Under the pieces are notes generated by a model. It was not told the DNA's origin. It was given only the letters and a program-made list of their open reading frames with translations, and ran no database searches. The position numbers were made by a program, and so were the translations under genes. This document shows positions 549-44,024 of a stretch of DNA of 64,000 nt, in pieces; positions within the stretch are counted from its first letter, which is position 1; the number at the start of each line of letters is the position of its first letter. This stretch comes from Panopea generosa (lineage: Eukaryota > Mollusca > Bivalvia > Adapedonta > Hiatellidae): positions 5,251,598 through 5,315,597 of the forward strand of contig CM055896.1 in NCBI GenBank assembly GCA_029582155.1, in the 5' to 3' direction.

Positions 549-686
549 CTGTTGTGCAGTTATCAAACATATATCCTGCGGAACATCCATGGCTACATGT
601 ACCAGTAATCCTATCGCATGTCGTTTTGTCTTTACAGTTACCGCATCTGTTGTTACAGTTATATCCAAAGTATCCATCGGTGCAAG
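549..686 (-). CDS. EGF-like repeat exon (last in window)
   Basis: 46 codons, acceptor CTTTTAG, donor ACAG|GTAAAA, phase 1-1. It reads CTDGYFGYNCNNRCGNCKDK, then TTCDRITGTCSHGCSAGYMFDNC. The donor keeps phase 1, so further exons of the gene must lie beyond the left edge of the window. Confidence 0.85.
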
Positions 687-1316: not shown

Positions 1317-1457
1317 TTATATTGCAAAGTACGCCCGTATAGCCCCGATCACAACCTTCTGCACACCTGCCGTCAGTTATATTACATGTTTGGTTGTTTC
1401 TACAGTTGCCACTGCAGTTGAAGGAGCAATGGAGTCCATAATGTCCAGGATAGCAAG
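1317..1457 (-). CDS. EGF-like repeat exon
   Basis: 47 codons, acceptor TTAAAG, donor ATAA|GTAGGT, phase 1-1. It reads CYPGHYGLHCSFNCSGNCRN, then QTCNITDGRCAEGCDRGYTGVLC. The SGNC spacing is one residue longer than in its neighbours. Sequons NCS and NIT are present. Confidence 0.85.
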
Positions 1458-1912: not shown

Positions 1913-2047
1913 GCATCTTACAAATCGGTCCTGTATACCCCGCTGCACAATCAGTACAGTTTCCTTTTTCCTTATTACAAGGGCTAGCATCTAGACAATG
2001 TCCACACTCATTCCCACAATTAATACCATAGTGCCCATACTCACACG
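1913..2047 (-). CDS. EGF-like repeat exon
   Basis: 45 codons, acceptor GTTTAG, donor ATGC|GTAAGT, phase 1-1. It reads CEYGHYGINCGNECGHCLDA, then C...KGNCTDCAAGYTGPIC, eight cysteines. It belongs to a second EGF subtype (x-CGHC-x core) that also includes the 549-686 exon (RCGNC). Confidence 0.85.
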
Positions 2048-2715
2048 CTAAACAAACAGTGTACAAGTGTTTACATTACGGGTTTAGTTAAAATAACAAT
2101 ATGAAATGTTGATTGGTAATCTTGTGTGCTAGAAGGTGACCAGAAACTATCCAGAAAGTGGACTCACAGTGCAAAAATACAAGCCCATGCCGCCATTGTC
2201 ATAACATGTGCAAATATATGTGGTTATTAGTTTAAATGCGTGTACTTTGCTATTATATATGTGAAGAAAATCATCCATTTTTTATGTAGACTATCACAAG
2301 CAGTTAACAACAATTACTAACAAAGTTACTAAATGTGTTTCTTTACACCATCATGTGCATGGCTTACACACCATATCATTATTTGCATATGCAGGGTGTG
2401 CATTGTATAGTTTTTCTAAATGAAATATAGTAATGTTGTTAACATCGATAATAATATATAATTGGTACGTAAATAAAGATTAAATCAAAGACATGAAATA
2501 TATATATGCTCGGCCTTGATTGTGCACGTATTTCAAAATGACTGCTGCCTATCTATAGAAGCTATCAAGCGATCTCGTTCTGCCGATCAATTAAAAAGAG
2601 ATTGTATCAGACTGAGTGTAAAAGGGATATCCTACTATTTACTAAAATGTACAGAATTCTCACTTATTAAACACGATACGCACGATTCTATTTTGTCTAC
2701 CATATTATAATTTAC

Positions 2716-2847
2716 TGTTTGTGCAGGTCGAACCTTGGAAACCAGCGGAACAATTCCGAGGACATAGCCCGGACGTTTTGTTACACACATCAAAATCAAA
2801 ACAATGGCACTCTGTTTTACAGTCATCAAAAGTTCCATTATTGCATT
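2716..2847 (-). CDS. EGF-like exon, diverged sister of the tandem copies (copy 0)
   Basis: Same 44-codon module and splice borders as the amplified exon. I see two base changes, both amino-acid changing: Asp to Asn after the first cysteine, and Ser to Phe (CHCFDFDV instead of CHCFDSDV). Its flanks, including an L1-like LINE fragment on the right, are homologous to unit 1 but clearly more diverged, so it predates the main amplification. Confidence 0.85.
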
Positions 2848-3304
2848 CTGAAATCATCGGTAGAATTGTTTGATATTATACTACAAAACTGAATGTTGTA
2901 TTTAAAAAAAGATGAAAAAAGATTGTTTGTTTATAGAGAATTCAATTGTAGTTTGCTGTTACTGAACGGTAATTGGCAAAGAGGAATGTATTACGATTTT
3001 AGAACATTATTCCGAAATTCATACTTGTCGATGATGTTGCTAGCCTTCGCAAAGTGACATTGATGATGTCAGCATAACACTGACGCCACCATTTGAGCTA
3101 ATATTTTATATTGTTGGAGAGGGGATGGAAATTAAGATATAAATGAATACAGTGCCTCCATTAACGCTGACCAATGCAACTTGCATGCACACATATTTCG
3201 CTTTTTTACCGGTACCTTACAAAACAACACTGCCATAACAATGAATAATACATTTTTTTTTGTTACGAACAACTTGGGTCTCTGCATATATATTTTAGTG
3301 CGTA

Positions 3305-4145
3305 TCTAAAATGATGAGTAATATGTCAGTTATATCTATGAATGTACAGGGTCTTGGAGATAAAAATAAGCGGCAAGATACATTTGAATTTCTCAAAAGT
3401 AAACAATATTCAATTTTTTTCTTCAAGACACTCATTTTACTGATACAGATATACCTTTTATATGTACTCAGTGGGGTAATGAATATTTTTTAGATTGTTT
3501 TCTAGCCAATCTAGACGTATAGTATTATTATTAACAACAATTCTGAATTCGAAGTACATTCAGTGGAAACAGACCAAAATAGAAATAAAATTATATTAGA
3601 TACAACTTGATGTATTAAAAAATTAAACTGATAAACATCTATGGCCCAAATAGATCCTATTTTCTATGATAATCTGAAGGAGAATATTTATGCAACTGAT
3701 TCTTTAACCATCATTGCTGGAGACTTCAATGTAGCTCTGGATCATAATATAGACTGTTTTGAATACATTAATATAATTAATCCTAATGATCGAAAAAATC
3801 TTCAAGATTTGTTTATTGAATGTTATTTGATAGATTGTTGGCGCGACCAACATTTAGAAGAAAAAAAGTTCACATGGTTTTAAAAAATCTCTCAAAAGAA
3901 AGCAAGACTTGACTACTTTTAATCTCAGCATGTATAATGATGAATATTAATACTGTAGATGTAAAACCAGGATATATAACTTATTCGCTTAATACTAGAA
4001 TTTGGAAAATTTGAAAAGGGAAAATCATATTGGAAATACAACAATTCACTTTTAAAAGATATAAACTACATTGATAAAATAAATAAAGAATACAATAAAC
4101 TGCGTAAAATTACAATACGCTAAAGAGACTTTTAATAATGATACC
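3305..4145 (+). mobile_element. L1-like LINE fragment, endonuclease part (decayed)
   Basis: Translation of 3311 onward gives MSVISMNVQGLGDKNKRQDT and FEFLKSKQ, the N-terminal start of an L1-type APE endonuclease (family form: SxNVNGL.d..KR). A piece starting at 3641 holds LTIIAGDFNVALD, the catalytic GDFN motif. Frames are broken by stops and small indels. It is on the opposite strand to the host gene, in its intron. Confidence 0.8.
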
Positions 4146-4325
4146 ATTGATTAATTTATTCTGAAATATCAAAATGCACGGAATGAGAAATTTATTAGGA
4201 TTCGGGCTTTTCAGAGTGTTTAAAACTCTATTGAAAATATGCTTTTGTTTGAAAACAATAGAAACGATTAAACAATCGTTTCTAATAGTCAGACATATAT
4301 TTCGTCAATTCTCTATTTAATTTAC

Positions 4326-4457
4326 CTTTTGTGCATGTAGATCCTTGGTAACCGGCAGAGCAGTTACCTGGACATTCTCCATTTGTTTTATTACACACAT
4401 CAGTACCAAAACAGTGACAATACTGGGAACAATTACCATACGTTCTATCATCGCATT
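4326..4457 (-). CDS. EGF-like repeat exon
   Basis: 44 codons, acceptor ending TAG, donor AAAG|GTAAAT, phase 1-1. It reads CDDRTYGNCSQYCHCFGTDV, then CNKTNGECPGNCSAGYQGSTC. The second half is close to the amplified exon (CNKTSGLCPRNCSAGFQGSTC), making it the nearest unamplified paralogue apart from the copy at 2716-2847. Confidence 0.85.
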
Positions 4458-4668
4458 CTAAAAATAAACAACATCAGCAAAATGTTATTTAATTTGAAAC
4501 TAGTTTTATCTTCAAGTATCAGGAGTGTTTGCGGCTATTAATATTTTGAGAACACTTGCATTGAATTAATATCACGTAAATTTTTATATTGGCTCTCACA
4601 TGTGTAAATTACTATCACTTGTTTTATATATATGCATAAAGTTCGTATATTGATTACGTATATAAGAA

Positions 4669-4911
4669 GGTCCTCCGTGGCCGAAGGGGTCTAGCACGCC
4701 GTCTCAAGATCACCTACTTCTCTCAGCTGCGGTCATAGGTTCCAGTCCCGCTCGGTCCAAAACCATTTTAACAGAAAGTTTGCCAGATACTTGCGAAGGT
4801 CAGCAGTTTTATTCAGTTTAAGTATGAGGTTTTCTTCCACCAATAAAACTTGATATGCAGTATTTAACCTGAAATTTGTTGAAAATTGCGTTAAACCCCA
4901 TCAAAAATACG
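4669..4911 (+). mobile_element. tRNA-derived SINE
   Basis: The head GGTCCTCCGTGGCCGAAGGG, with TAGCACGCCGTC and GGTTCCAGTCCCGCTCGGTCC, has the A and B boxes of a class II (Ser/Leu-like) tRNA. It is followed by an unrelated body ending GCGTTAAACCCCATCAAAAAT, as in mollusc SINEs. It lies in the intron between the exons at 5009 and 4457. Confidence 0.75.
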
Positions 4912-5008
4912 TGTATTTCATCAGTCAATGTGTCCGTTAGATTCTACTTCACCTTTTGATAAAATACCTTCTTATGTTTATTTCAACCTGAAACAATGTG
5001 TCACTTAC

Positions 5009-5140
5009 GGTTTGTACATGTTGGTCCATAATAGCCAAATGAACAGTTTTTTGGGCAGACACCTGACACCTTGTCGCACACATCGTTGTTGAAACAATGG
5101 CACTCTTTAACACAGTCACCGAATTTACCATTAGGACAAG
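5009..5140 (-). CDS. EGF-like repeat exon
   Basis: 44 codons, acceptor AATTTCAG, donor AACC|GTAAGT, phase 1-1. It reads CPNGKFGDCVKECHCFNNDV, then C...SGVCPKNCSFGYYGPTC, with the same cysteine spacing as the amplified exons and a similar core (ECHCF..DVC). It looks like an older duplicate of the same ancestral exon. Confidence 0.85.
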
Positions 5141-6469
5141 CTGAAATTATAATGGTCAACTCATCAGACATACCTCTTAAAGACGCCTAAATGACTTACA
5201 CACTTAACCCTTAAACGAAATATTGTATCTTTAATGCACAAATGTAAACATGTTTTTTTTTATTTATGCAATAAAACGGTTTTTAATGTGTATATATTTC
5301 GTAGAATACCGTTTTTAAAGCACCGTCTGTCACGTGACTTCACATTACAATTGACAATGTAGTTATACTAACGGTATATACATTTGCAAATACATTCTTT
5401 TAAAACAGACATATACCGTTGACAAAGTGTAATAATCATTTGTTCAAAACATTTAAACAAAACATAGCAGGAAACTTCAAAATTAACATGTTTACTGACA
5501 ATATGTAATTAAAAGTACAATAATAACTAAATAAATGAAGAAACATTTATATTATTATCAATATTTCATACCTAACGTATTATATTTATAGGCGAGAATA
5601 TACATAATATACAAAAAAAAAACACACCAACGAATAAAAAAACGACAGACGATAACTAATATTTGCAATAAACACTTTTTAAAAAACAACTACTACTTTG
5701 TTAGGTTTATACGTTATGATGCATTAGTAGATGTCAAAATATTAATTGCCATTAGTATTGACGCTACAGGAGATATCACTATCAATTCAGCGTTGGAAAA
5801 AACAGAAATTCAAAGTCAAACGCCGGAGATAACTGGTACATGCAATAGAACAGGTAAGATATTTTTAAATTCAGGCATGCATTCGTGGCGCAGACGTTGA
5901 AAATTAGTCACGTTTTTTGAATTTGAAACAATGGTGCAGCAAATGCTATTGGATTGTTAATCAAAGCAAATCGTAAACGATACAGAATACAGGCAGTCAA
6001 TGTAAAACGTCGCATTACGTTGTTACAAGAAACTCGTGTTTACCATATTCACAGAGCATCGCACAATACGTTTTTGTTACTAGTTAGATTATTAGTATAA
6101 ATTCAACAATAAATGTACATCCTTATAGTTTTATTTGTATATTACATGTAAGCAAAATATAGGTCATGCATATATATCTCGTTCCTTTATTAATAAAATA
6201 TTTTCGATTGTTAGCAGTGTTCATGTCGATGCTTTAGCAAGATTTTCAAGCAACAGCAACGTTAGGTTTTAAGAGGAAGCTTTTCACCGTGGGTTACTGT
6301 ATATTTAAGTGATTTTTAAGCCGATTAGTAAGTGTTGGATCGCAACTGGTGTATGGAACTAGTTGCTATGACATATACTACCAAACATGAATGGCTGTAT
6401 TAATGACCAGCTATTACAATGACGCTGGACGCAAACGCCAGTTTATAACGAGCACCGTGTATGTGAAAG
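5141..6469. other. Intron, no feature recognised
   Basis: AT-rich sequence with homopolymer runs between the 5009-5140 exon and the homologous flank of unit 1. I see no exon with EGF cysteine spacing and no clear transposon motif. Confidence 0.5.
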
Positions 6470-6889
6470 TTGTTAGTTTGAATGCGTGTAATTTGCTATT
6501 ATATATGTGAAGAAAATCATTCGTTTATATGTAAACTATCACAAGCGGTTACCAACAATTGTAAGTTACAAAATTTGTTCCTTTACACCACCATGTGCAT
6601 GGCTTACACACCATATCATTATTTGCATATGTGCAAGGTGTGTATTGTATAGTTTTTTCTAAAAGAAAGTTTTTTATTTAGTAATGTTGTTTACATTGAT
6701 AATGATATACGATTGGAGCTTAAATAAAGATTAAATCAAAGACATGAAATATACATATCAATTATTTCAATATCTAGTATCATATTATAAATGATTGCCG
6801 CATTTGGTATATTTTCTCGGCCTTGATCGTGCATGTTTTTCAAAATGACTGCTGCCTATCTATAGGAACTATCAAGCAGTGTTGCTCTG

Positions 6890-8923
6890 CCGATCAATTA
6901 AGAAAAGATTGTATCAGTGTAAAAGGGATATCCTATTATTTACCAAAGTGTACAAAATGCTCACTTATTATACACAATACGAACGATTCTATTTTGTTCC
7001 ACCATATTATAACTTACTGTTTGTGCAGGTCGAACCTTGGAAACCAGCGGAACAATTCCGAGGACATAGCCCGGACGTTTTGTTACACACATCAGAATCA
7101 AAACAATGGCACTCTGTTTTACAGTCATCAAAAGTTCCATTATCGCATTCTGAAATCATAAGTAAAATTGTTTGATATTATGATACACGACTGAATGTTG
7201 TATTTGAAAAAAAGATAAAAAAAACAATTGTATGTTTATAGATAATTCAAATGTAGTTTTCTGTTACTGAACGGTTATTCACAAACAGGGATATATTACG
7301 ATTTTAGTACATTATTCCGGAATTCATACTTGTCGATGATGCCGCTAGCCTTTGCAAAGTGATATTGATAATGTCAGCATAACACTGACGCCACCATTAG
7401 TGCAAATATTTTAATATTTTATCATGATGGAGAGGGGATGGAAATTTAGAGATAAATGTATACAATACATCCATTAACGCTGATCAATGCAACTTGTATG
7501 CACATAGATTTCGCCTTTTTACCGGTACCTTACATACAATGTAACACTACTGCCAAAACATTGAATAATACATTTTTTGTTCAACTTGGCATATATTATT
7601 TTTTTAGTGCATATCTAAAATGACGAGTAATATTTCAATTATATCTATGAATGAACAGGGTGTTGGAGATAAAAAATAAGCGACAAGACACATTTGAATT
7701 TCTCAAAAATAAACAATATTTAATTTATTTTCTTTTATACGTACTCAGTGGGATAATAAATTTTTTTTAGAATTTTTTTCTAGCCAATCTAGAGGTGTGG
7801 CTATTCTTATTAACAACAATTTTGAATTCAAAGTATATTCTGTGGAAACAGACCAAAATGGAAATAAAATTATGTTAGATACAACTTGATGTAATAAAAA
7901 AATTAAACTTATAAACATCTATGGCCCAAATAGAGATGATCCTATTTTCTATGATAACCTGAAGGAGAATATTTTAGCAACTGATTCTTTAACCATCATT
8001 GCCGGAGACTTCGCCCTGGACCCTGATATAGACTGTTTTTGAATACATTAATATAAATAATCCTAATGCTCGAAAAAGTCTTCAATATTTATTGATTGAA
8101 TGTAATTTGACAGATTGTTGGTGCAATCAACATTTAGAAGGAAAACAGTTCACATGGTTTAAAAAAACTTTCAAAAGAAAACAAGACTTGACTTCTTTTA
8201 TCTCAACATGTCTAATGATGGATGTTGATACTGTAGATATAAAACCAGGATATAGAACTTATTCGCTTAATACTATGATTTGGAAAATTTGAAAAAGGAA
8301 AATCATATTGGAAATTCCACAATTTCACTTTTAAAAGATATAAACTACATTGATAACATAAAGAATACAAAAAACCGCGTAAAATTTCAATACGCTAAAG
8401 AGACGTTTAATATTGATATAAATTATGTTCCGATTTTATATAAGCGATCAACTACTTTTAGAAGTGCTTTTATTTGATATTCGTGGAGTAACTATTTCCC
8501 ATTTTATTACATCAAACGACAAGACCAAACGGTAGCAATACTTTATAATGAAATTGAAAATCTACAAAAGGAATTCATACAAAATTATACTTTAATAGAA
8601 TAATAAAAATAATAAATTGATATAAGAGAGAAAAAAATGGGGATAAGAATAAGATCACGGGTAAAATTGGTGAAAAAAGGAGAAAATAACTAAAAGAAAT
8701 ATTTTTGCAATTTAGAAAATAGGATCTTTACATCAAAATCAATGTTAAAACTTCAGGCATCTAATGGTAACCTTTTCAAAACACAAAATGAAATACTTAA
8801 AGAAACGATAAACTTAAATGATACTTTTTTGCATTTAAATATATCAAAATTGAATGAAATTAAGAAAACATTACTTGATGGTCCGATTAAAAATAATGTC
8901 GGATGATAAAAGTCCCGGCTTTG
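6890..8923. repeat. Tandem unit 1 (2034 bp): EGF exon + LINE 5' half
   Basis: Runs from CCGATCAATTAAG in the intron left of the EGF exon to the LINE joint CCCGGCTTTG. It contains the exon at 7018-7149 (minus) and an L1-like LINE start at about 7620 (plus) with endonuclease remnants (IIAGDFA, CNLTDCWCNQHLEG). Unit 1 adjoins the ancestral left flank. Diagnostic variants: GAACAGGGTG near 7660 and GTGGGATAATAAA near 7750. Confidence 0.9.
7018..7149 (-). CDS. EGF-like exon, tandem copy 1
   Basis: Identical 132 bp EGF-like exon in repeat unit 1, the unit whose left side (from about 6470) still adjoins ancestral intron sequence also found beside the 2716-2847 exon. Borders and phase match the other copies. 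It is the last of the five amplified copies in transcript order. Confidence 0.8.
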
Positions 8924-10956
8924 CCGATCAATTTAGAAAAGATTGTATCAGTGTAAAAGGGATGTCCTATTATTTTCCAAAGTGTACAAAATGCTCACTT
9001 ATTATACACTATACGAACGATTCTACTTTTGTTCCACCATATTATAACTTACTGTTTGTGCAGGTCGAACCTTGGAAACCAGCGGAACAATTCCGAGGAC
9101 ATAGCCCGGACGTTTTGTTACACACATCAGAATCAAAACAATGGCACTCTGTTTTACAGTCATCAAAAGTTCCATTATCGCATTCTGAAATCATAAGTAG
9201 AATTGTTTGATATTATGATACACGACTGAATGTTGTATTTGAAAAAAAGATAAAAAAACAATTGTATGTTTATAGATAATTCAAATGTAGTTTTCTGTTA
9301 CTGAACGGTTATTCACAAACAGGGATATATTACGATTTTAGTACATTATTCCGGAATTCATACTTGTCGATGATGTCGCTAGCCTTTGCAAAGTGATATT
9401 GATAATGTCAGCATAACACTGACGCCACCATTAGTGTAAATATTTTAATATTTTATCATGATGGAGAGGGGATGGAAATTTAGAGATAAATGTATACAAT
9501 ACATCCATTAACGCTGATCAATGCAACTTGTATGCACATAGATTTCGCCTTTTTACCGGTACCTTACATACAATGTAACACTACTGCCAAAACAATGAAT
9601 AATACATTTTTTGTTCAACTTGGCATATATTATTTTTTTAGTGCATATCTAAAATGACGAGTAATATTTCAATTATATCTATGAATGAACATGATGTTGG
9701 AGATAAAAAATAAGCGACAAGACACATTTGAATTTCTCAAAAATAAACAATATTTAATTTATTTTCTTTTATACGTACTCAGTGGGGTAATGAATTTTTT
9801 TAGAATTTTTTTCTAGCCAATCTAGAGGTGTGGCTATTCTTATTAACAACAATTTTGAATTCAAAGTATATTCTGTGGAAACAGACCAAAATGGAAATAA
9901 AATTATGTTAGATACAACTTGATGTAATAAAAAAATTAAACTTATAAACATCTATGGCCCAAATAGAGATGATCCTATTTTCTATGATAACCTGAAGGAG
10001 AATATTTTAGCAACTGATTCTTTAACCATCATTGCCGGAGACTTCGCCCTGGACCCTAATATAGACTGTTTTTGAATACATTAATATAAATAATCCTAAT
10101 GCTCGAAAAAGTCTTCAATATTTATTGATTGAATGTAATTTGACAGATTGTTGGTGCAATCAACATTTAGAAGGAAAACAGTTCACATGGGTTAAAAAAA
10201 CTTTCAAAAGAAAGCAAGACTTGACTTCTTTAATCTCAACATGTCTAATGATGGATGTTGATACTGTAGATATAAAACCAGGATATAGAACTTATTCGCT
10301 TAATACTATGATTTGGAAAATTTGAAAAAGGAAAATCATATTGGAAATTCCACAATTTCACTTTTAAAAGATATAAACTACATTGATAATATAAAGAATA
10401 CAATAAACTGCGTAAAATTTCAATACGCTAAAGAGACGTTTAATATTGATATAAATTATGTTCCGATTTTATATAAGCGATCAACTACTTTTAGAAGTGC
10501 TTTTATTTGATATTCGTGGAGTAACTATTTCCCATTTTATTACATCAAACGACAAGACCAAACGGAAGCAATACTTTATAATGAAATTGAAAATCTACAA
10601 AAGGAATTCATACAAAATCATACTTTAATAGAATAATAAAAATAATAAATTGATATAAGAGAGAAAAAAATGGGGATAAGAATAAGATCACGGGTAAAAT
10701 TGGTGAAAAAAGGAGAAAATAACTAAAAGAAATATTTTTGCAATTTAGAAAATAGGATCTTTACATCAAAATCAATGTTACAACTTCAGGCATCTAATGG
10801 TCACCTTTTAAAAACACAAAATGAAATACTTAAAGAAACGATAAACTTAAATGATACTTTTTTGCATTTAAATATATCAAAATTGAATGAAATTAAGAAA
10901 ACATTACTTGATGGTCCGATTAAAAAATATGTCGGATGATAAAAGCCCCGGCTTTG
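8924..10956. repeat. Tandem unit 2 (2033 bp)
   Basis: Begins directly after the GGCTTTG|CCGATCA joint. It carries the exon at 9053-9184 and the LINE 5' half. Variants GAACATGATG (near 9690), GTGGGGTAATGAA (near 9785) and a Phe-to-Val change in the LINE reading are shared with unit 4 but not with units 1 and 3. Confidence 0.9.
9053..9184 (-). CDS. EGF-like exon, tandem copy 2
   Basis: Identical 132 bp EGF-like exon in repeat unit 2; acceptor, donor and phase as in the other copies. The adjoining intron shares private variants with unit 4, indicating that this copy and 13120-13251 descend from one duplication step. Confidence 0.8.
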
Positions 10957-12990
10957 CCGATCAATTAAGAAAAGATTGTATCAGTGTAAAAGGGATGTCC
11001 TATTATTTTCCAAAGTGTACAAAATGCTCATTTATTATACACAATACGAACGATTCTATTTTTGTTCCACCATATTATAACTTACTGTTTGTGCAGGTCG
11101 AACCTTGGAAACCAGCGGAACAATTCCGAGGACATAGCCCGGACGTTTTGTTACACACATCAGAATCAAAACAATGGCACTCTGTTTTACAGTCATCAAA
11201 AGTTCCATTATCGCATTCTGAAATCATAAGTAAAATTGTTTGATATTATGATACACGACTGAATGTTGTATTTGAAAAAAAGATAAAAAAAACAATTGTA
11301 TGTTTATAGATAATTCAAATGTAGTTTTCTGTTACTGAACGGTTATTCACAAACAGGGATATATTACGATTTTAGTACATTATTCCGGAATTCATACTTG
11401 TCGATGATGTCGCTAGCCTTTGCAAAGTGATATTGATAATGTCAGCATAACACTGACGCCACCATTAGTGCAAATATTTTAATATTTTATCATGATGGAG
11501 AGGGGATGGAAATTTAGAGATAAATGTATACAATACATCCATTAACGCTGATCAATGCAACTTGTATGCACATAGATTTCGCCTTTTTACCGGTACCTTA
11601 CATACAATGTAACACTACTGCCAAAACATTGAATAATACATTTTTTGTTCAACTTGGCATATATTATTTTTTTAGTGCATATCTAAAATGACGAGTAATA
11701 TTTCAATTATATCTATGAATGAACAGGGTGTTGGAGATAAAAAATAAGCGACAAGACACATTTGAATTTCTCAAAAATAAACAATATTTAATTTATTTTC
11801 TTTTATACGTACTCAGTGGGATAATAAATTTTTTTTAGAATTTTTTTCTAGCCAATCTAGAGGTGTGGCTATTCTTATTAACAACAATTTTGAATTCAAA
11901 GTATATTCTGTGGAAACAGACCAAAATGGAAATAAAATTATGTTAGATACAACTTGATGTAATAAAAAAATTAAACTTATAAACATCTATGGCCCAAATA
12001 GAGATGATCCTATTTTCTATGATAACCTGAAGGAGAATATTTTAGCAACTGATTCTTTAACCATCATTGCCGGAAACTTCGCCCTGGACCCTGATATAGA
12101 CTGTTTTTGAATACATTAATATAAATAATCCTAATGCTCGAAAAAGTCTTCAATATTTATTGATTGAATGTAATTTGACAGATTGTTGGTGCAATCAACA
12201 TTTAGAAGGAAAACAGTTCACATGGTTTAAAAAAACTTTCAAAAGAAAATAAGACTTGACTTCTTTTATCTCAACATGTCTAATGATGGATGTTGATACT
12301 GTAGATATAAAACCAGGATATAGAACTTATTCGCTTAATACTATGATTTGGAAAATTTGAAAAAGGAAAATCATATTGGAAATTCCACAATTTCACTTTT
12401 AAAAGATATAAACTACATTGATAATATAAAGAATACAAAAAACCGCGTAAAATTTCAATACGCTAAAGAGACGTTTAATATTGATATAAATTATGTTCCG
12501 ATTTTATATAAGCGATCAACTACTTTTAGAAGTGCTTTTATTTGATATTCGTGGAGTAACTATTTCCCATTTTATTACATCAAACGACAAGACCAAACGG
12601 TGCAATACTTTATAATGAAATTGAAAATCTACAAAAGGAATTCATACAAAATCATACCTTAATAGAATAATAAAAATAATAAATTGATATAAGAGAGAAA
12701 AAAATGGGGATAAGAATAAGATCACGGGTAAAATTGGTGAAAAAAGGAGAAAATAACTAAAAGAAATATTTTTGCAATTTAGAAAATAGGATCTTTACAT
12801 CAAAATCAATGTTAAAACTTCAGGCATCTAATGGTAACCTTTTAAAAACACAAGATGAAATACTTAAAGAAACGATAAACTTAAATGATACTTTTTTGCA
12901 TTTAAATATATCAAAATTGAATGAAATTAAGAAAACATTACTTGATGGTCCGATTAAAAATAATGTCGGATGATAAAAGTCCCGGCTTTG
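10957..12990. repeat. Tandem unit 3 (2034 bp)
   Basis: Same content: exon 11086-11217 and the LINE 5' half. It shares GAACAGGGTG and GTGGGATAATAAA with unit 1. It has a private stop in the LINE endonuclease near 12249 and GGAAACTTC instead of GGAGACTTC near 12073. Confidence 0.9.
11086..11217 (-). CDS. EGF-like exon, tandem copy 3
   Basis: Identical 132 bp EGF-like exon inside repeat unit 3, with intact acceptor and donor and phase 1-1. Joining it to the neighbouring copy yields a lysine codon (A + AA) between repeats, so the chain reads through as ...STCTN-K-CDNGTF.... Confidence 0.8.
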
Positions 12991-15025
12991 CCGATCAATT
13001 AAGAAAAGATTGTATCAGTGTAAAAGGGATGTCCTATTATTTTCCAAAGTGTACAAAATGCTCACTTATTATACACTATACGAACGATTCTACTTTTGTT
13101 CCACCATATTATAACTTACTGTTTGTGCAGGTCGAACCTTGGAAACCAGCGGAACAATTCCGAGGACATAGCCCGGACGTTTTGTTACACACATCAGAAT
13201 CAAAACAATGGCACTCTGTTTTACAGTCATCAAAAGTTCCATTATCGCATTCTGAAATCATAAGTAGAATTGTTTGATATTATGATACACGACTGAATGT
13301 TGTATTTGAAAAAAAGATAAAAAAACAATTGTATGTTTATAGATAATTCAAATGTAGTTTTCTGTTACTGAACGGTTATTCACAAACAGGGATATATTAC
13401 GATTTTAGTACATTATTCCGGAATTCATACTTGTCGATGATGTCGCTAGCCTTTGCAAAGTGATATTGATAATGTCAGCATAACACTGACGCCACCATTA
13501 GTGTAAATATTTTAATATTTTATCATGATGGAGAGGGGATGGAAATTTAGAGATAAATGTATACAATACATCCATTAACGCTGATCAATGCAACTTGTAT
13601 GCACATAGATTTCGCCTTTTTACCGGTACCTTACATACAATGTAACACTACTGCCAAAACATTGAATAATACATTTTTTGTTCAACTTGGCATATATTAT
13701 TTTTTTAGTGCATATCTAAAATGACGAGTAATATTTCAATTATATCTATGAATGAACATGATGTTGGAGATAAAAAATAAGCGACAAGACACATTTGAAT
13801 TTCTCAAAAATAAACAATATTTAATTTATTTTCTTTTATACGTACTCAGTGGGGTAATGAATTTTTTTAGAATTTTTTTCTAGCCAATCTAGAGGTGTGG
13901 CTATTCTTATTAACAACAATTTTGAATTCAAAGTATATTCTGTGGAAACAGACCAAAATGGAAATAAAATTATGTTAGATACAACTTGATGTAATAAAAA
14001 AATTAAACTTATAAACATCTATGGCCCAAATAGAGATGATCCTATTTTCTATGATAACCTGAAGGAGAATATTTTAGCAACTGATTCTTTAACCATCATT
14101 GCCGGAGACTTCGCCCTGGACCCTAATATAGACTGTTTTTGAATACATTAATATAAATAATCCTAATGCTCGAAAAAGTCTTCAATATTTATTGATTGAA
14201 TGTAATTTGACAGATTGTTGGTGCAATCAACATTTAGAAGGAAAACAGTTCACATGGGTTAAAAAAACTTTCAAAAGAAAGCAAGACTTGACTTCTTTAA
14301 TCTCAACATGTCTAATGATGGATGTTGATACTGTAGATATAAAACCAGGATATAGAACTTATTCGCTTAATACTATGATTTGGAAAATTTGAAAAAGGAA
14401 AATCATATTGGAAATTCCACAATTTCACTTTTAAAAGATATAAACTACATTGATAATATAAAGAATACAATAAACTGGATAAAAATTTCAATACGCTAAA
14501 GAGACGTTTAATATTGATATAAATTATGTTCCGATTTTATATAAGCGATCAACTACTTTTAGAAGTGCTTTTATTTGATATTCGTGGAGTAACTATTTCC
14601 CATTTTATTACATCAAACGACAAGACCAAACGGAAGCAATACTTTATAATGAAATTGAAAATCTACAAAAGGAATTCATACAAAATCATAATTTAATAGA
14701 ATAATAAAAATAATAAATTGATATAAGAGAGAAAAAAAATGGGGATAAGAATAAGATCACGGGTAAAATTGGTGAAAAAAGGAGAAAATAACTAAAAGAA
14801 ATATTTTTGCAATTTAGAAAATAGGATCTTTACATCAAAATCAATATTACAACTTCAGGCATCTAATGGTCACCTTTTAAAAACACAAAATGAAATACTT
14901 AAAGAAACGATAAACTTAAATGATACTTTTTTGCATTTAAATATATCAAAATTGAATGAAATTAAGAAAACATTACTTGATGGTCCGATTAAAAAATATG
15001 TCGGATGATAAAAGCCCCGGCTTTG
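12991..15025. repeat. Tandem unit 4 (2035 bp)
   Basis: Exon 13120-13251 plus the LINE 5' half, with the unit 2 variants (GAACATGATG near 13755, GTGGGGTAATGAA near 13852). A small private change, CTGGATAAAAATT for CTGCGTAAAATT, lies near 14475. Confidence 0.9.
13120..13251 (-). CDS. EGF-like exon, tandem copy 4
   Basis: Same 44-codon eight-cysteine EGF-like module, acceptor, donor and phase 1-1 borders as the 15155-15286 copy, and identical to it by eye. It sits in repeat unit 4. The flanking intron has the variant shared with unit 2 (see 8924-10956). Confidence 0.8.
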
Positions 15026-17059
15026 CCGATCAATTAAGAAAAGATTGTATCAGTGTAAAAGGGATGTCCTATTATTTTCCAAAGTGTACAAAATGCTCAT
15101 TTATTATACACTATACGAACGATTCTATTTTTGTTCCACCATATTATAACTTACTGTTTGTGCAGGTCGAACCTTGGAAACCAGCGGAACAATTCCGAGG
15201 ACATAGCCCGGACGTTTTGTTACACACATCAGAATCAAAACAATGGCACTCTGTTTTACAGTCATCAAAAGTTCCATTATCGCATTCTGAAATCATAAGT
15301 AGAATTGTTTGATATTAGGATACACGACTGAATGTTGTATTTGAAAAAAAGATAAAAAAACAATTGTATGTTTATAGATAATTCAAATGTAGTTTTCTGT
15401 TACTGAACGGTTATTCACAAACAGGGATATATTACGATTTTAGTACATTATTCCGGAATTCATACTTGTCGATGATGTCGCTAGCCTTTGCAAAGTGATA
15501 TTGATAATGTCAGCATAACACTGACGCCACCATTAGTGCAAATATTTTAATATTTTATCATGATGGAGAGGGGATGGAAATTTAGAGATAAATGTATACA
15601 ATACATCCATTAACGCTGATCAATGCAACTTGTATGCACATAGATTTCGCCTCTTTACCGGTACCTGACATACAATGTAACACTACTGCCAAAACAATGA
15701 ATAATACATTTTTTGTTCAACTTGGCATATATTATTTTTTTAGTGCATATCTAAAATGACGAGTAATATTTCAATTATATCTATGAATGAACAGGGTGTT
15801 GGAGATAAAAAATAAGCGACAAGACACATTTGAATTTCTCAAAAATAAACAATATTTAATTTATTTTCTTTTATACGTACTCAGTGGGTTAATGATTTTT
15901 TTTTAGAATTTTTTTCTAGCCAATCTAGAGGTGTGGCTATTCTTATTAACAACAATTTTGAATTCAAAGTATATTCTGTGGAAACAGACCAAAATGGAAA
16001 TAAAATTATGTTAGATACAACTTGATGTAATAAAAAAATTAAACTTATAAACATCTATGGCCCAAATAGAGATGATCCTATTTTCTATGATAACCTGAAG
16101 GAGAATATTTTAGCAACTGATTCTTTAACCATCATTGCCGGAGACTTCGCCCTGGACCCTAATATAGACTGTTTTTGAATACATTAATATAAATAATCCT
16201 AATGCTCGAAAAAGTCTTCAATATTTATTGATTGAATGTAATTTGACAGATTGTTGGTGCAATCAACATTTAGAAGGGAAACAGTTCACATGGGTTAAAA
16301 AAACTTTCAAAAGAAAGCAAGACTTGACTTCTTTAATCTCAACATGTCTAATGATGGATGTTGATACTGCAGATATAAAACCAGGATATAGAACTTATTC
16401 GCTTAATACTATGATTTGGAAAATTTGAAAAAGGAAAATCATATTGGAAATTCCACAATTTCACTTTTAAAAGATATAAACTACATTGATAATATAAAGA
16501 ATACAATAAACTGCGTAAAATTTCAATACGCTAAAGAGACGTTTAATATTGATATAAATTATGTTCCGATTTTATATAAGCGATCAATTACTTTTAGAAG
16601 TGCTTTTATTTGATATTCGTGGAGTAACTATTTCCCATTTTATTACATGAAACGACAAGACCAAACGGAAGCAATACTTTATAATGAAATTGAAAATCTA
16701 CAAAAGGAATTCATACAAAATCATACTTTAATAGAATAATAAAAATAATAAATTGATATAAGAGAGAAAAAAATGGGGATAAGAATAAGATCACGGGTAA
16801 AATTGGTGAAAAAAGGAGAAAATAACTAAAAGAAATATTTTTGCAATTTAGAAAATAGGATCTTTACATCAAAATCAATGTTACAACTTCAGGCATCTAA
16901 TGGTCACCTTTTAAAAACACAAAATGAAATACTTAAAGAAACGATAAACTTAAATGATACTTTTTTGCATTTAAATATATCAAAATTGAATGAAATTAAG
17001 AAAACATTACTTGATGGTCCCATTAAAAAATATGTCGGATGATAAAAGTCCCGGCTTTG
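15026..17059. repeat. Tandem unit 5 (2034 bp), the only unit continuing into the rest of the LINE
   Basis: Exon 15155-15286 plus the LINE 5' half. At 17059 the sequence does not jump back to the intron joint but runs on as CGGATATACGG, encoding the reverse-transcriptase motif KSPGFDGY. This therefore marks the right end of the array. Flank and LINE variants are a third type (GTGGGTTAATGA near 15885). Confidence 0.9.
15155..15286 (-). CDS. EGF-like exon, tandem copy 5 (first in transcript order)
   Basis: 44 codons, acceptor GATTTCAG, donor AACA|GTAAGT, phase 1-1. It reads CDNGTFDDCKTECHCFDSDV, then cysteines in CNKTSGLCPRNCSAGFQGSTC, giving eight cysteines in all. By eye the 132 bp exon is identical to the other four array copies. 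It lies inside the fifth 2.03 kb repeat unit. Splice signals are intact, so it can be used, though transcript evidence is needed. Confidence 0.8.
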
Positions 17060-19350
17060 ACGGATATACGGTTGAATTTTACAAATTCATTTAGATAGAC
17101 CTAGGACATTTTTTTACTTATTGCTATAAATGAGGAATATACTAAGGGAGAAGTTTCAGTTTTACAAACGCAAGGGGTCATTACATGTTTACCGAAAGGG
17201 AACAAAGATAAATCGGTTTTAAAATATTGGCGAACAATTTCACTTTTAAATGTTTCTTACAAGTTAGCATCTTGATGTATTGCAAAAAGAATGAAAGATA
17301 TTTTACCATTTATTATTAATGAGGATCAGATAGGATTTTTATCAGGTCGAAATATTGGCAAAAAAAATCGATTTTTGTATGATCTAATGTTTTATTAAGA
17401 AACGAATCATATACCAGGCATGTTACTACTAACTGACTTTGAGAAAGCATTAGACTCAGTAGCCTAGGCTTTTATTTTTGCAGTTCTTAAAAATATAAAA
17501 ATATAGAATCATGTGTAATAGCCTTGGACACTAGTCAGAGTAGTTATACTTACAGAGAGGCTATATAGACCCATTATCCCCATAAAAATTAATTTAATGT
17601 GCAGATATCATAGCTGTTCTAATCAGAAATAACCCTAATATAAAAGGTATACAGATTGGCAATATAAACTATTTAATTTCACTATATGCCGATGATACAA
17701 CACTCATGCTTGATGGTTCAGAAAAAATCACTTGTTAACACACTTCAAACATTAAAATTCTTTGCTGAAATCTCCGGCCTTAATACCAATGTTGATAAAA
17801 CAGGATAGGCTCAATCAAAAAAGTAATATTAAGTTATGTGAACAATATACTATTTCTTGGGACAATGAATTTATTATCCTTGATATTCGATTTTCAGTAG
17901 ATCTAGACAAAATGGTTAATATGAAGTTTGATGATAAAATACATGATATAAAACAGCTTTTATCCATTGGTCAAAACGAGTATTGACACCAGTTGGTAAA
18001 ATAACAATCTTAAAAAGTTTAGCCATATCAAAAATTAATCATCTTATCTTAGCTCTACCAAAGCCTAACTTATATAAAATTAAAGAGATTAAAAGTTTAT
18101 TTTTAAAATTTATTTGGGATGGTAAACCAGACAAGGTGAAAAAAAATACTCTTTACAACTTTTACATAAAAGGGGGCCTCAAAATGATTGATATAGACCT
18201 TTTTATTAACTCATAAAAACTGATATGGACAAGACGCCTTTTAAACTGAAATAAAAAATATCTAGATATATTTAATTCAATGTACCCATTCATGTCAAAT
18301 GTCGGCATATATTGCCCTGATTTTATTAGTAGACACATAAACAGAATACATAATACCTTCTGGAAAGATATTTTTAGAAGTTTTCAAACATATATTCAAA
18401 CTTACTTCTAAAGCCTGCAAATTGGGGTACATTTAAAAAAATCTAATTTGGCTAGATCCGAACATTAAGGTCTGAGGTACAAGTATATTTTATAATCATT
18501 TGGTTATCTAAGGATGTTTTATTGATAAATGATATAATGAATACAAATGGTTATTTCTACTCAATGATTGATTTTATCAATAGGTAAACATAATTACAAA
18601 ATTCATAGAATATGAAGGATTGCTAGCATCTGTAAAAAGGTACTTGTCTAAACGTTTAATTGTTCATTTAGCTAGTAATGGAGGGGCACCTACATGCCCT
18701 TTATCAATATCAATGATTATGAAAGATACAAAAGGATGTTGAGTAATCTACCAATCTTGTATACAAGAAAATATAATCCCTCAATCCGCTGCTAAATGGG
18801 AAAATGAATTGGATATAAAAACCAGTTTGGTTGAAACATAATTTTACTGCCTTCCATTTAACATAACACATGACACAAATTTACAATGGTTTCAGTACAG
18901 AATAAACAACCAAATATTAGGAACCAATTCTCTTTTTAAAAAATAAAAATTAATGACTCTGATATTTGCAGTTTATGCAACAGAGAAATAGAAACAATTT
19001 AACTTTTTTTATCGCATGTTACACTTATGAACAATTTATCTCGTGTATGATGAACCATATTCACGAAAAATGTATAGGTATTAATTTAAAATAGACAAAT
19101 ACAGACATTATGTTCGGAAATAAAAAGTTTGATAAAGTCTTAAATAAAATAATATTGATTGCAATGTAATTTATTTACAATCAGAAACTTAAAATAGTTT
19201 AACCTACACTTTAACAACTTAAAAAAACATATTATAAATCTATATAATACAGAACGGTATCTTGCAAAATAAATTGTAAAAGACACACTATTGATTTGGA
19301 ATTATTATAAGCCACTAATGTCTTGATACAAATTTGAAACATTTTACATG
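15756..19350 (+). mobile_element. L1-like LINE, near full length but dead
   Basis: The endonuclease start at 15756 leads through the unit 5 part into reverse transcriptase from 17040: DDKSPGFDGYTVEFYK, then ISLLNVSYKLAS, DQIGFLSGRNIG, LLTDFEKALDS and ISLYADDTTLMLDGSE (catalytic YADD, near 17680). The C-terminal stretch at 17983-18216 has TPVGKITILKSLAISKINHL and KFIWDGKPDK, typical of L1-clade ORF2. Many stops and frameshifts show it is inactive. The 3' end is not sharply defined; I place it near 19350. Confidence 0.8.
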
Positions 19351-21000
19351 TTTCTCTTTCAATTTTAATTTAGACACAGTTGTTTAATAACAAATACATT
19401 TATATTTTGTAGACATTTAATTATATCAGTCCCCATCCCCTCCCCAGAGTGATTTTATATTTTCCTTTTTTTCATTTCTCCAATCATTATAATATTTAAC
19501 TGCTCATTATCAAGACAAGACCTGTAAGAAGAATAAGTATACCTCAATAAAACGTTACTTTCTTTTTCCAAAAAGTCAGAGAAAAAATCAATTGGATTGT
19601 TTTTATGCACTTATCTATCATCAATAAATGAAGTCCAACACTCAATTTAACATGTATTGGTGCTTTACAGTTTATACATTATAATAAGTGCAAAGCGTTT
19701 TGATAACATAACGAGGTTGGCTCTTATCAATGTTTGTTAGACTGGATGAATACTTATTAAGGACTTGCATGTGAAATTTTTCACTTTTTAGGTTGTGTAG
19801 TATTTGCTCAGGAGTTGACAAAGCTTAAGCTTACATATTTATTGTTTCATAATATCTCTTATACAAATGATTTACCTGCCAGATGTTTAATGATATTCCA
19901 CTATATAACTAAATATTTTATATTAAATTGTGAAAAATGATTTCAATTCCATGTATTAAATTCTGTACGTCTACAAATGCATATATGTACACGTTGTCTT
20001 AATGTTGTCTTAATGTTGTCCTGATATCAGTGAGATTCCACTTCACTAGCTTATTAAACAAACTATAAAAAGCAAATGCATAATCGTTGACACTTTACAA
20101 CACTTTTGTGTTTAATTTCCAGAAGTTATATTAAACACATACACAATATTCACATATTAAAACATTAGGATTTACCAATGCAATTCTTAAGAAGTTCTTC
20201 TGCAAAGTAGCTTCATAGCTTCATATTTACAGTTTATCAAAGCGGTACATTTAGACATATAAACAAAAATTTATGATAGCTTAACCAATAAAAGAAATGA
20301 GATTGCATCAATTAAAATAGAAGAAGAACCAGTAATAATACTATTTTGTGTCGTATTAGCTGGGTTTTTTAACGAAAGAAAAATTTAACAAAGACGCTTG
20401 TGGAGCTTCAGATGAAAACACGGATCGATATTTTACATCTGCTTTAAAACATATGCGAAAAACAATAAAGAAATAATTACTTTTAGGAATTATAAAGCTT
20501 GCTAGTCTCAATTATTTGTGTACAGCATCAAAAAAAGTGTTATTTTCTTTAAATGGCAAGCAAAGAGTCTGTAAATACTATTAAACAGTTCTTCACATCT
20601 GTCTATGGATAAATGATAGTTAAAAACCGCAATAATTTGATGTGCTCAAGTTTTTGTAATGTGAAAAATAAAACACCTATTTCAGATGAAATTAACAGTC
20701 GTGTTCTCCGCGAAATTGCTAATGACTTATTTAAGCCTCTTTTTAAGCTTTTTGATAAAAATCCCGACGCTTTGAAAGAAGCAATAATGTGCTTGATTAA
20801 TGCAGCTCTCTGAAGTATCCAACCACATTAATATGGAGCTTGTGTTCCAACATCATATATTACTAACACAGCAAGCAGGACTTTATATATATATATATAT
20901 TATTCGACTACATTTTTGTACATGCTATATCCACTAAATCTAAACCTAAACTTTAATGAATTCAATTAACACATATGCACGCTTCTAAACATAGTTCAAA
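19351..21000. other. Intron, no recognised gene; short unassigned open frame at 20613-20813
   Basis: AT-rich. A 66-codon plus-strand frame (20613-20813; contains ISDEINSRVLREIANDLFKP) has somewhat protein-like composition and may be a relic of a transposon or exon, but I recognise no family and see no convincing splice borders. A short (TA)n run is at about 20887-20904. Confidence 0.35.
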
Positions 21001-22294: not shown

Positions 22295-22432
22295 CTTTGT
22301 TGCAAGCATTTCCTTGCCACCCAGGAAAGCAACTTATAGACTGACATGTACCATTGTACATGCCACAAGAAAGTCCATCCTTACAATGACACTTGCGTGA
22401 ACAGTTTACTCCAAACGTTCCAACTGGACAGG
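22295..22432 (-). CDS. Exon 7: EGF-like repeat
   Basis: 46 codons, acceptor CATTTCAG, donor AAAG|GTAAGT, phase 1-1. It starts CPVGTFGVNCSRKCHCKDG and carries eight cysteines in the C-x6-C-x3-C-x-C arrangement typical of laminin-type/MEGF10-like EGF modules, ending PGWQGNACNKG. The NGT sequon suggests an extracellular setting. In the model the next exon downstream is the first of the five amplified EGF exons, about 7 kb away across the L1-like LINE. Confidence 0.85.
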
Positions 22433-24230: not shown

Positions 24231-24792
24231 GAATATGTGTAACTTTCATATACACATTCAGTTTTTTTAAACATCACTTTTGATACACTTAATCGATTAA
24301 TTTATTAAGAAAAATCACAAATTTATTGACTTCTTTCCAACAATACCTTATTTATATATACCGAGTTTCATAAGTTCAGATATTCATGTTTAAGTTCATC
24401 GGAGACGAATTTGTACCTTAAGTATATAAACCAGTTTAACAAACAGTTCACGGACATAAGTAACCTTACATTTATATATTAATATAAAACGAGTAAGAGG
24501 TCAACCTTTATCTGATTTCATTAGTACTATCATAGGTGTAGATCATGACATATTGCTTAATATGTTAATGTACATGTACATATTAAACGTAATATTATTT
24601 GTAACAACTGTAGATTTATTAAATACGCTTACTTGATAAAAGTTTTAGATAATTGTATTATTTGCCTATTCACAGTAATCAAATGCGGTTTAAAGATTAA
24701 AACACAAGTCGAATTTCCCATGATTAAAATAAATTAATAATAATGCAAATGCATTGTTTTAACAGTTGATATGTATATGAATATAACTATAC

Positions 24793-24987
24793 CTTTTTCT
24801 ATCATGTTCACTTCACACAATGTTAGGAATCCAGTTTTCGTGATAGTAATATATTGTGACCATACACCTCCAATATACATGGTGAAAACATAGCCGGTTC
24901 CGATTCCGCTAAATGATGCAGGTGCCAGATTATTAGTTGTGTTACTAACGTAAAGCGAAAACCCTGTCAACTGCCCATAATCTGTTG
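24793..24987 (-). CDS. Exon 5: C-terminal half of F5/8C/F-lectin-like domain 2
   Basis: 65 codons between acceptor ATTTTCAG and donor AAAG|GTATAG, phase 1-1. It reads DYGQLTGFSLYVSNTTNN near the start and ends GFLTLCEVNMIEKG, parallel to the end of exon 3 (PLTLCEVEVLVKG). It completes the second discoidin-like domain begun in exon 4. The 5.4 kb intron between them holds a decayed minus-strand LINE. Confidence 0.8.
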
Positions 24988-25129
24988 CTGAAAATAAATG
25001 AAATACTTGTTCAAATTTATTGTTTATCAACCTTATAAACTGATATTTAGAATAATTTAATGTAGCTTATGTACATGAAGTATATTTATGATAAAACTAA
25101 ATTTTAAGTATAACATATTTCTTCTCACA

Positions 25130-29899: not shown

Positions 29900-30356
29900 T
29901 GCACTGTTTTACACACAGTTACTTATCTATAGTTAAAAATGAGTTTGTTTAAAAAAAGGTATGAGATAATATAAACAACTAGTAGTTAAAATTGTTGTGA
30001 TCTACACAACACAAATGAAGTGATTACTTTTGTATATTTGCTCATACCCGCACGCATTTGTAGTGTATATAGTTCAATTTTAGTCTGTAGTATATAATAG
30101 GTTCTACAATCTGTCTGCAGTATCGTCTGACAGTCATTTCACTATTGTAAAGATAGACAATTATAGAAAATTGTAAATTATTGTTTTTATGGTTTTGTTG
30201 TTTGTTTCATTCTTTGATATATATATTATAGTGAGAATCATATACCTCACAAAACACCTTTCAGAAGCACCGGATCTGCGAAGAATGCATAAAAGATAGA
30301 TATAGTAAATATTGTAGAGATTATTACCATAATATAAATATATACGACATACTCAC

Positions 30357-30590
30357 GATTACTTCTTCCTATGACCTTTATATACTCTATTTTATATTTG
30401 CTGCCCAAATTCAAAACCCATTTCGATGTGCCAGTTTTGTGATGAATGTTGTCGAAAGTTCCACTGCAACAATCGCATTCCTCTGGTGTTTTACCAACTG
30501 CTGGAAACTTATCATCAATCGCTCTATCGGCTGTCCAGTTGCTATATTGATGTGGTAAACTACTGGCTTTTACAAGGTGTTTGATTGAAC
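30357..30590 (-). CDS. Exon 4: N-terminal half of F5/8C/F-lectin-like domain 2
   Basis: 78 codons; donor AATC|GTGAGT is strong. I chose the acceptor TTTTATAG at 30591 because it keeps phase 1 and puts the start just before IKHLVKASSLPHQYSNWTADRAIDD, which lines up with the NVAL.K.ASQSS...A.DG start of the family. An in-frame TAA further upstream excludes a longer exon. The middle carries a cysteine cluster (EECDCC) and SKWVLNLGSKYKIEYIKVIGRSN, equivalent to W.VDLG...I..V.I..R. It is more diverged from the consensus than domain 1. Confidence 0.75.
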
Positions 30591-32040
30591 CTATAAAACC
30601 TTCAAACGAGCCAAAAGGTTTACATTTGGATAATGTCAAATTGAATGTTGACATACACGTTTACATAAACGGTTGTGGAACTGAAAACACATTTAACGCT
30701 TACGTTTATATCGTATATTATCATAAGAAAAGTTAAGGGAATAAACAATAACGATAAAAAAACTATTCTTGAGCATAAACGATATAAAGCTCTTGATGGG
30801 AAACACACTAATTACTTAAATATCACAAAAGGTTTTATGCAATATTTATATACTGTGCGAAACAAGTTAAGATTCATTCTTTGATCATGTGTGTAATATT
30901 CAAGGCTAAAATATATTAAACATTAGTATATGTATTGTCATTACATGATTGTTTAAACGTCTGACTATATATCTAGACCATTATTGATTATTTTAGAAAG
31001 CTTGCACTCGTTGTAGGGTGCTTTTCATCATTGTGTACGTGCTGCACGGGATACCAATGATGAAGAATCTATTTCGACAAAACAATAAACGCATTACACA
31101 GCTATTGTGCCCGTAGTCTGAAGCTACATGAAACATTTTTCTACTGTAATTATGTCGACACTACATACAAACCAATGCCTTATAGCCTTTGGTATGCTAT
31201 AAGCGAATGTACAAAAAGATCACATCCGGCATAGACAAATTCAAGAACTTAAGATTTCCACCATATGTTTAACTAATAATTAATCAGCACTTTTAAAGGA
31301 ATGAAAGAACACAATTCAGTTTCATTAATTTCTCAAATATAATAGTTTTAAAATGTAAATGAAATCATCATAAAGTGTTACTAACAACAATTACAAATGA
31401 TATATACTTAATTTCATTCATTGTTAACTGTTAGGTTTGTTTTAACTCCTTTTACCCATCACTTTATGCGCGCCTGTTTTATTGGCTTTTACACATTCCA
31501 AATTATAAATGTATAGTGAATGTGTTGTGTTTTGGTGAAAGCAGTGGCCATGTGAAGTCAGACAGCTTAGAGAGATACTTTTCAAATGGAATCAGGAGTA
31601 CATTTTGTTTCAAGGATTGTGTAGCAATATAAAGGCAAGGCTGCGACAAGTGGTGCACTAATGGTACCATAATAATATCTACAAAATATACACACACGGT
31701 ATGGCCGTATCGGTTATTATAAAAAATGAATGGAAGTTATTTACACACCAATTATAACTTTGATATATAATAACTTTTTTAAACAAAGCGAAGTCGAATT
31801 AACAAACTAGTAAGAAAATAATTTCTCATGCAAACATCTTTGAAAGGAGTACATTAACATTATTTTCATCAAAAACGCTTGGTAAAATGTTGAACAGTTG
31901 CAAGTACTTATTTGGTAGATAATTTATGTAAAACTTCATTAGAAGTTTGAAATACCAGATACATTGATTCCATAATTCTCGTCTGCATTTTTTATAATCA
32001 TCAAACATGTTTTTAAAAGTAAAGCAGATGTGCATTTAAT

Positions 32041-32944: not shown

Positions 32945-33135
32945 CTGAAACAAAGGAATTAAAACGTATACATTTAGCTTCTTTATTTATTCATTTGATA
33001 ATTCTAAGTAGCACATTCCAAATAAGAATGTATAATAGTAACTTAATTTTTATTTGACAGTGTGTGAGTGTTTGTCTCACTGTTCTAAAATTTTATATGC
33101 TTAAAGGCGACATGAATTCTAATACTTTTAATAAT

Positions 33136-43900: not shown

Positions 43901-44024
43901 GAGAGATAATTAAAATCACAACAACGGAATGTCCGATATATGTTACTTATTAATTTTACTCATGAACAGAAAATGTTTGCTTGGTATCGAATATAGTTTT
44001 CTGTAAAATAGTGCTTAATATATT
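40992..44024. other. Upstream region, no gene recognised
   Basis: Should contain the unlocated 5'UTR exon and promoter of the minus-strand gene. I see no TATA/Inr arrangement I can defend. 41600-42150 is somewhat GC-richer without a usable open frame. A (TA)n run is at 43422-43435. Confidence 0.4.

Follow-up and report, generated by a model that had tools for sequence, protein, structure and literature searches.

A tandem array of an EGF-like exon and a broken LINE fragment, probably grown by unequal exchange, in a putative receptor tyrosine phosphatase gene

In humans, the kringle IV type-2 (KIV-2) variable number tandem repeat (VNTR) of LPA, the apolipoprotein(a) gene, is reported to have units of 5.6 kb present in 1-40 copies per allele, the number being variable (PMC11462820), and in Schistosoma mansoni the exon-2 arrays of SmPoMuc are described as ~1 kb tandem units, each made up of a small exon and flanking intron (PMC2576457). 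In their discussion of SmPoMuc, the authors consider unequal crossing-over and gene conversion, and suggest that retrotransposons could mediate recombination between the SmPoMuc genes (PMC2576457). Here we describe an array of related design in a 64,000-nucleotide stretch of Panopea generosa DNA (hereafter, the window): as in LPA, a protein-coding module is tandemly repeated within what appears to be one gene, in units on the kilobase scale, and as in SmPoMuc, what is repeated is one small exon with flanking intron. The exon encodes an epidermal growth factor (EGF)-like module, and each unit also carries part of a long interspersed nuclear element (LINE). We consider it quite probable that the array arose as a tandem duplication through one non-homologous joint and then grew by unequal exchange, lengthening an EGF stalk in frame.

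Comparison of the window with itself by BLAST divides positions 6890-17059, as assembled, into five head-to-tail units (U1 to U5; Table 1), and their lengths of 2033-2035 bp are those given in the original prediction, an earlier reading of the same DNA. When the array is aligned with itself one to four units out of register, identity is 98.3-99.1%, and pairs of units differ at 0.30-1.57% of ungapped sites. About three quarters of a unit (~1520 of 2034 bp) is plus-strand LINE sequence, and the EGF-like exon lies on the minus strand. All internal joints had been said to be alike, and the LINE/intron joint GGCTTTG/CCGATCAATT is indeed identical over 17 bases at each of the four, while a fifth GGCTTTG, at 17053-17059, continues into ACGGATATAC with no intron joint. 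The two founding breakpoints match exactly over the dinucleotide TG (6888-6889 and 17058-17059), within a looser GCTcTG/GCTtTG match, in keeping with the ~2 bp originally attributed to both parents. An Rfam scan of the whole window returned no matches at gathering scores.

The array exon is 132 bp long, phase 1-1, and encodes an EGF-like module with eight cysteines; as first described, there is a single distinct sequence in all five units. Its borders, ag/AATGC ... CACAAACA/gtaagt (an ag acceptor and a gtaagt donor), are intact in every copy. The window contains 12 minus-strand EGF modules in all, among them nine exons with phase 1 at both ends, which when joined in silico give 397 residues with no stop, and three further exons with phase-1 acceptors; in-frame growth of the EGF stalk, as had been predicted, is thus supported by this open frame, provided that all five array exons (X1 to X5) are spliced in. 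As in MEGF/laminin-like EGF modules, the eight cysteines come in a fixed order, and they are invariant in all eight aligned modules, with the identical X copies counted once.

The five units are not equally related to one another: U1 and U3 differ by 0.54% and U2 and U4 by 0.30%, as against 0.84-1.57% for other unit pairs, and 21 sites join U1 with U3 and U2 with U4, whereas neither of the other two pairings is supported by a single site (0 and 0). From this pairing the array order reads as A-B-A-B-C, and the last growth step would have added a block of two units. Ultrafast bootstrap values agree in the full and tail trees (98 and 100 for U1+U3; 96 and 93 for U2+U4), and the head tree groups U3 with U2, U4 and U5 (92). 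The best fit to U3 is a U5-type head followed by a U1-type tail, with a breakpoint at 6965-7165, leaving 10 differences compared with 13 for U1 alone. At sites where U1 and U5 differ, U3 agrees with U5 at 6930, 6942, 6964 and 6991. Beyond these, starting at 7165, it mostly agrees with U1, and at each of the four exceptions in that part (7342, 8357, 8586 and 8777) U1 stands apart from all other units. These patterns lend modest support to U3 being a C head on an A tail, as an exchange between C and A offset by two units would leave. Several observations count against this history: the relation among A, B and C has bootstrap values of 52-58 (56 in the full tree), too low to put the first two growth steps in order; U3 follows U1 at 6976, contrary to a C-type head; a U4- or U2-type head suits U3 almost as well (11 and 12 differences); support for the chimera by permutation is modest (585/20000, P = 0.029); and patterns like these could also come from gene conversion or from replication-based amplification.

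We propose a tandem duplication of a symmetric phase 1-1 EGF exon, together with intron and part of a broken, 5'-truncated LINE that lay in the intron next to it, the founding non-homologous joint having formed at the TG microhomology from breaks at 6889/6890 (intron) and 17059/17060 (the reverse transcriptase region of the LINE). Homologous unequal exchange between units would then have enlarged the array, giving rise to lineages A, B and C, and a final step would have copied an A-B pair to produce A-B-A-B-C. Because the exon is phase-symmetric, each added unit would contribute 44 residues (one EGF module) to a receptor stalk with the frame kept. The earlier suggestion of one illegitimate joint followed by unequal exchange is supported by the 2-bp TG, by the continuity of the LINE across the right edge of the array, and by the U1-U3/U2-U4 pairing. 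The LINE had also been credited with most of the homology used in exchange, and by length this stands; however, the sole crossover that can be inferred, with modest support, falls in an interval (6965-7165) that contains the exon and no LINE sequence.

What had been called the 5' half of a LINE turns out to be a different piece, which starts shortly ahead of the main open frame of a 5'-truncated copy and stops in its early reverse transcriptase. LINE homology starts at window position 7404, equivalent to position 4008 of the relative L011, in which a 1258-residue frame begins at 4226 (L011 being the one related copy checked for open frames); the unit's LINE part ends at element position 5672, inside this frame and in the reverse transcriptase region, and the flank resumes from 17060 at element position 5673. 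Because relatives reach further 5', the LINE in this gene reads as a 5'-truncated L1-like copy. Reverse transcriptase sequence to the right of the array matches PF00078 at 7.4e-8 (one of four pieces), and four of its five PDB sequence matches are named LINE-1 ORF2 protein (human), with a best value of 6e-8. Two short pieces searched by profile for the apurinic/apyrimidinic endonuclease matched no endonuclease family, one of them giving only a sub-threshold glycosylase match; the segment that we take to be endonuclease is assigned on its motifs.

Within the first 288 codons of the LINE, one stop and one frame-breaking indel are common to all six copies (the five units and an older duplicate), and each unit has 8-10 frame-breaking indels, seven of which are found in all five. 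Because these lesions are shared, the LINE was broken before the array formed, and indeed before either duplication. In the genome (1.474 Gb in 39 contigs), at least 38 further places match the unit's LINE part at 80-84%, and one of these also has another piece that matches at 73%; within the window, the older copy and exon Z match as well. These counts come from the 39 of 321 candidates that were scored. Six related copies (L011-L016) look like a young L1-like family: they are 98.6-99.99% identical to each other over long alignments and have A-runs at their 3' ends, the shortest in L016, and L013 begins later than the other five, pointing to 5' truncation in the family. A search for a target-site duplication yielded nothing longer than 10 bp between the searched flanks, which were picked before the ends of the LINE copy were known.

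The older duplicate, which comprises flank, exon and LINE (Table 1) and, like the A-B-A-B-C order, did not figure in the original prediction, differs from the units at 9.9-10.3% of ungapped sites. Its LINE starts much as that of the array does (element positions 4020 and 4008, respectively), and its homology ends at 4143/8418, inside the LINE at element position 5075. This exon has thus been duplicated twice, in separate events, and both duplications have a boundary within a single LINE copy. A faster or slower older copy can be dismissed: with a related LINE copy as outgroup, 48 of 986 sites were particular to U1, 48 to the older copy and 37 to the family, and the other four units gave like results. 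To the left of 2191, a search at E up to 0.1 gave three short matches, the best of them at 0.002, and no counterpart of 4144-6435.

The paired similarity of the units might also originate in the assembly if true alleles were shorter (e.g., A-B-C) and the A-B pairs of two haplotypes had been placed in series. The differences within the U1-U3 and U2-U4 pairs lie within the possible allelic range, and the switch point in U3 falls where the units are nearly identical, both of which favour such an artefact; however, A, B and C themselves differ by 0.84-1.57%, the LINE/intron joint needs at least two real units, and the length of the window's contig (97.8 Mb) suggests a long-read assembly, and we regard a partial artefact of this kind as unlikely. 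It is also somewhat unlikely that the array owes its growth to template switching during replication, or to a circular copy that inserted back into the locus, in place of unequal crossover. A founding joint with 2 bp of microhomology would suit such a process, as would another tandem duplication in the window (56455-57688 / 57689-58929, with GACCAA shared at its joint), which fits microhomology-mediated events in this genome; but homologous exchange accounts for both the pairing of units and the mosaic head of U3 with nothing further to be assumed.

Whether grown by exchange or otherwise, the array could be a neutral, non-coding accident, with its extra exons skipped or the gene dead. The original prediction had set a conserved exon against broken LINE frames, a contrast that is invalid among the units, as the lesions are common to the copies and the LINE was broken before the array existed. 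We also rejected the identity of the exon across the five units as proof of selection: none of the 51 variable columns falls in the exon (P = 0.033), but it is in the LINE, from variable site 7761 to 8007, that the units go longest without a difference, and the identity is partly due to youth. Comparison with the older copy is more telling, with 2 differences over the 132 exon sites and 176 over the remaining 1746 (Fisher P = 2.9e-4), which makes constraint on the exon likely, with conversion between exons as a possible alternative. Both exon differences are residue-changing and none is silent, where ~2.7 silent ones were expected, such that purifying selection is not cleanly supported; yet splice sites and frame are intact in all five copies, and a non-coding accident appears quite unlikely.

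Table 1. Features of the array and its surroundings, in window coordinates.
Feature	Position	Strand	Remarks
Unit U1 (type A)	6890..8923		2034 bp
Unit U2 (type B)	8924..10956		2033 bp
Unit U3 (C-like head, A-type tail)	10957..12990		2034 bp
Unit U4 (type B)	12991..15025		2035 bp
Unit U5 (type C)	15026..17059		2034 bp; LINE part continues into right flank
Left founder breakpoint	6888..6889		TG common with 17058-17059
EGF exon X1	7018..7149	-	132 bp, phase 1-1
EGF exon X2	9053..9184	-	identical to X1
EGF exon X3	11086..11217	-	identical to X1
EGF exon X4	13120..13251	-	identical to X1
EGF exon X5	15155..15286	-	identical to X1
LINE part of U1	7404..8923	+	just before main open frame to early reverse transcriptase; equivalents in U2-U5
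Remainder of the array's LINE copy, outside array	17060..20005	+	relatives are homologous up to 20005
Older duplicate of flank, exon and LINE	2191..4143		homologous to 6436-8418
EGF exon X0 (older duplicate)	2716..2847	-	2 differences from X, both residue-changing
EGF exon Z	4326..4457	-	132 bp, phase 1-1
EGF exon Y	5009..5140	-	132 bp, phase 1-1
First EGF exon	22295..22432	-	138 bp, phase 1-1
EGF module (first to last Cys)	1920..2045	-	exon with phase-1 acceptor
EGF module (first to last Cys)	1324..1455	-	exon with phase-1 acceptor
EGF module (first to last Cys)	556..684	-	exon with phase-1 acceptor
Open frame, possible first part of F5/8 type C-like domain	30247..30660	-	below cut-off
Open frame, possible second part of F5/8 type C-like domain	24734..25066	-	below cut-off

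The gene that hosts the array extends, to judge from strand, order and phase, over all exons listed in Table 1, which would belong to one transcript. In L010, the 20 kb to the left of the window, three of six same-strand frames tested match Y_phosphatase (PF00102) at 4.2e-13, 5.9e-10 and 1.2e-4, all above the cut-off, and one phosphatase-like frame contains CSAGVGRTG, which we take to be the tyrosine phosphatase signature. A simple script pattern picked out a hydrophobic run in a same-strand frame (L010:5705-5935), where Pfam gave only a sub-threshold match to Rft-1. Because phosphatase-like frames and EGF modules occur on one strand, the gene most likely encodes a receptor-type tyrosine phosphatase whose EGF stalk has at least 12 modules. 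Another head-to-tail duplication, 90.8% identical at an offset of 997 bp, lies at L010:1480-3680, in the interval that separates the hydrophobic segment of this putative gene from its phosphatase frames. For the possible F5/8 type C-like domain, profile PF00754 gave E 0.0025 and 18.4 bits, short of the cut-off of 28.2.

A search with the predicted protein, in which the best 8000 candidates by common words were scored, recovered at least 25 homologues at 1e-5, with 26-37% identity to the query. Most of those that bear a name are oyster proteins labelled MEGF10/11-like or similarly, and the chiton Liolophura sinensis contributes a receptor-type phosphatase; by its protein relatives, the host genome would be mollusc-like. 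Recent EGF repeats occur among these homologues, 6 of 25 having a 40-residue self-match of at least 32 (40/40 in P0024). Searching with four EGF modules gave 64 candidates, none at 1e-6, and no near-identical protein from the same species was found. The EGF modules themselves matched no Pfam family as a two-module peptide (E up to 10) and no EGF family within the 461-residue predicted query (E up to 1), and the EGF pair had three PDB sequence matches up to E 1, the best being Spitz (E 0.22). A fold model of one module (predicted local distance difference test score, pLDDT, 79; predicted template-modelling score, pTM, 0.47) most resembles SCARF1 and laminin-type modules; in Foldseek the best match was SCARF1 at E 0.043, and none reached 0.001.

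The window contains further repeats. At 56455-58929, a different LINE carries a head-to-tail duplication of ~1234 bp that is 98.9% identical, with GACCAA common at the joint; the same 67-bp satellite forms two arrays (44433-47539 and 61985-63994), around which 44018-46452 and 61547-63994 are 83% alike; and a direct repeat of ~440 bp (33124-33567 and 33644-34078) is 87% identical. As background, we sampled 18 stretches of 10 kb (180 kb) from the same genome for adjacent head-to-tail repeats of at least 300 bp at 90% identity or more. These occurred in 9 of the 18. Among the matches listed, at most six per stretch, every adjacent one had an offset below 500 bp, and where L023 and L026 showed larger offsets, of up to ~1 kb, these belonged to the same short-period arrays. 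By the same criterion, two of six 10-kb pieces of the window have such repeats, the units being 1.2 and 2.0 kb long, and L010 next to it has one of 1.0 kb; the window had been picked for its repeat, and the comparison is therefore not a test.

It is possible, although we hold this tentatively, that this receptor phosphatase contains an exon VNTR that is still active, with individuals differing in the number of X exons and in stalk length. If so, the locus would turn over quickly by multi-unit unequal exchange, and the long homologous arm that eases misalignment would be a dead LINE fragment. One locus appears to keep several steps of domain accretion (a 10%-diverged exon duplication, a non-homologous founding joint and a recent two-unit expansion), all of them in frame and in a probable signalling receptor. 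It could allow changes in the length of a receptor stalk to be timed, and LINE remnants to be compared with the exon as sites of exchange.

Compared with the described systems, the array differs from LPA KIV-2 in having units of 2.03 kb, five of them in one assembly, each mostly LINE. The SmPoMuc arrays are described as having a 27-bp mucin exon, polypurine microsatellites between units, a multigene family and repeat numbers that vary among individuals, and the passages that describe them place solo long terminal repeats elsewhere in the genes and mention no LINE within a unit (PMC2576457). The nebulin triplicate region and the titin segmental duplication are likewise reported to repeat blocks of exons in one gene and to be prone to copy-number change, but these are muscle proteins, and the nebulin blocks span eight exons. 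Octovafibrin, from octopus egg tethers, is reported to have 29 EGF modules of three disulphides each and terminal C-type lectins, in a load-bearing thread (PMC10336842); it, too, is a molluscan protein with many tandem EGF modules, whereas the modules here have eight cysteines and belong to a probable receptor phosphatase. EGF modules of this type also occur in bivalve MEGF10-like proteins and the Liolophura sinensis receptor-type phosphatase, some with an F5/8-like domain, a likeness at the protein level, with 26-37% identity to the predicted query. No account of a case of this kind was found in the open-licence PubMed Central literature, among the matches listed. Exon-bearing tandem arrays within genes are already known; what is particular here is that a dead LINE makes up about three quarters of the unit and that the steps by which the array grew are still readable.

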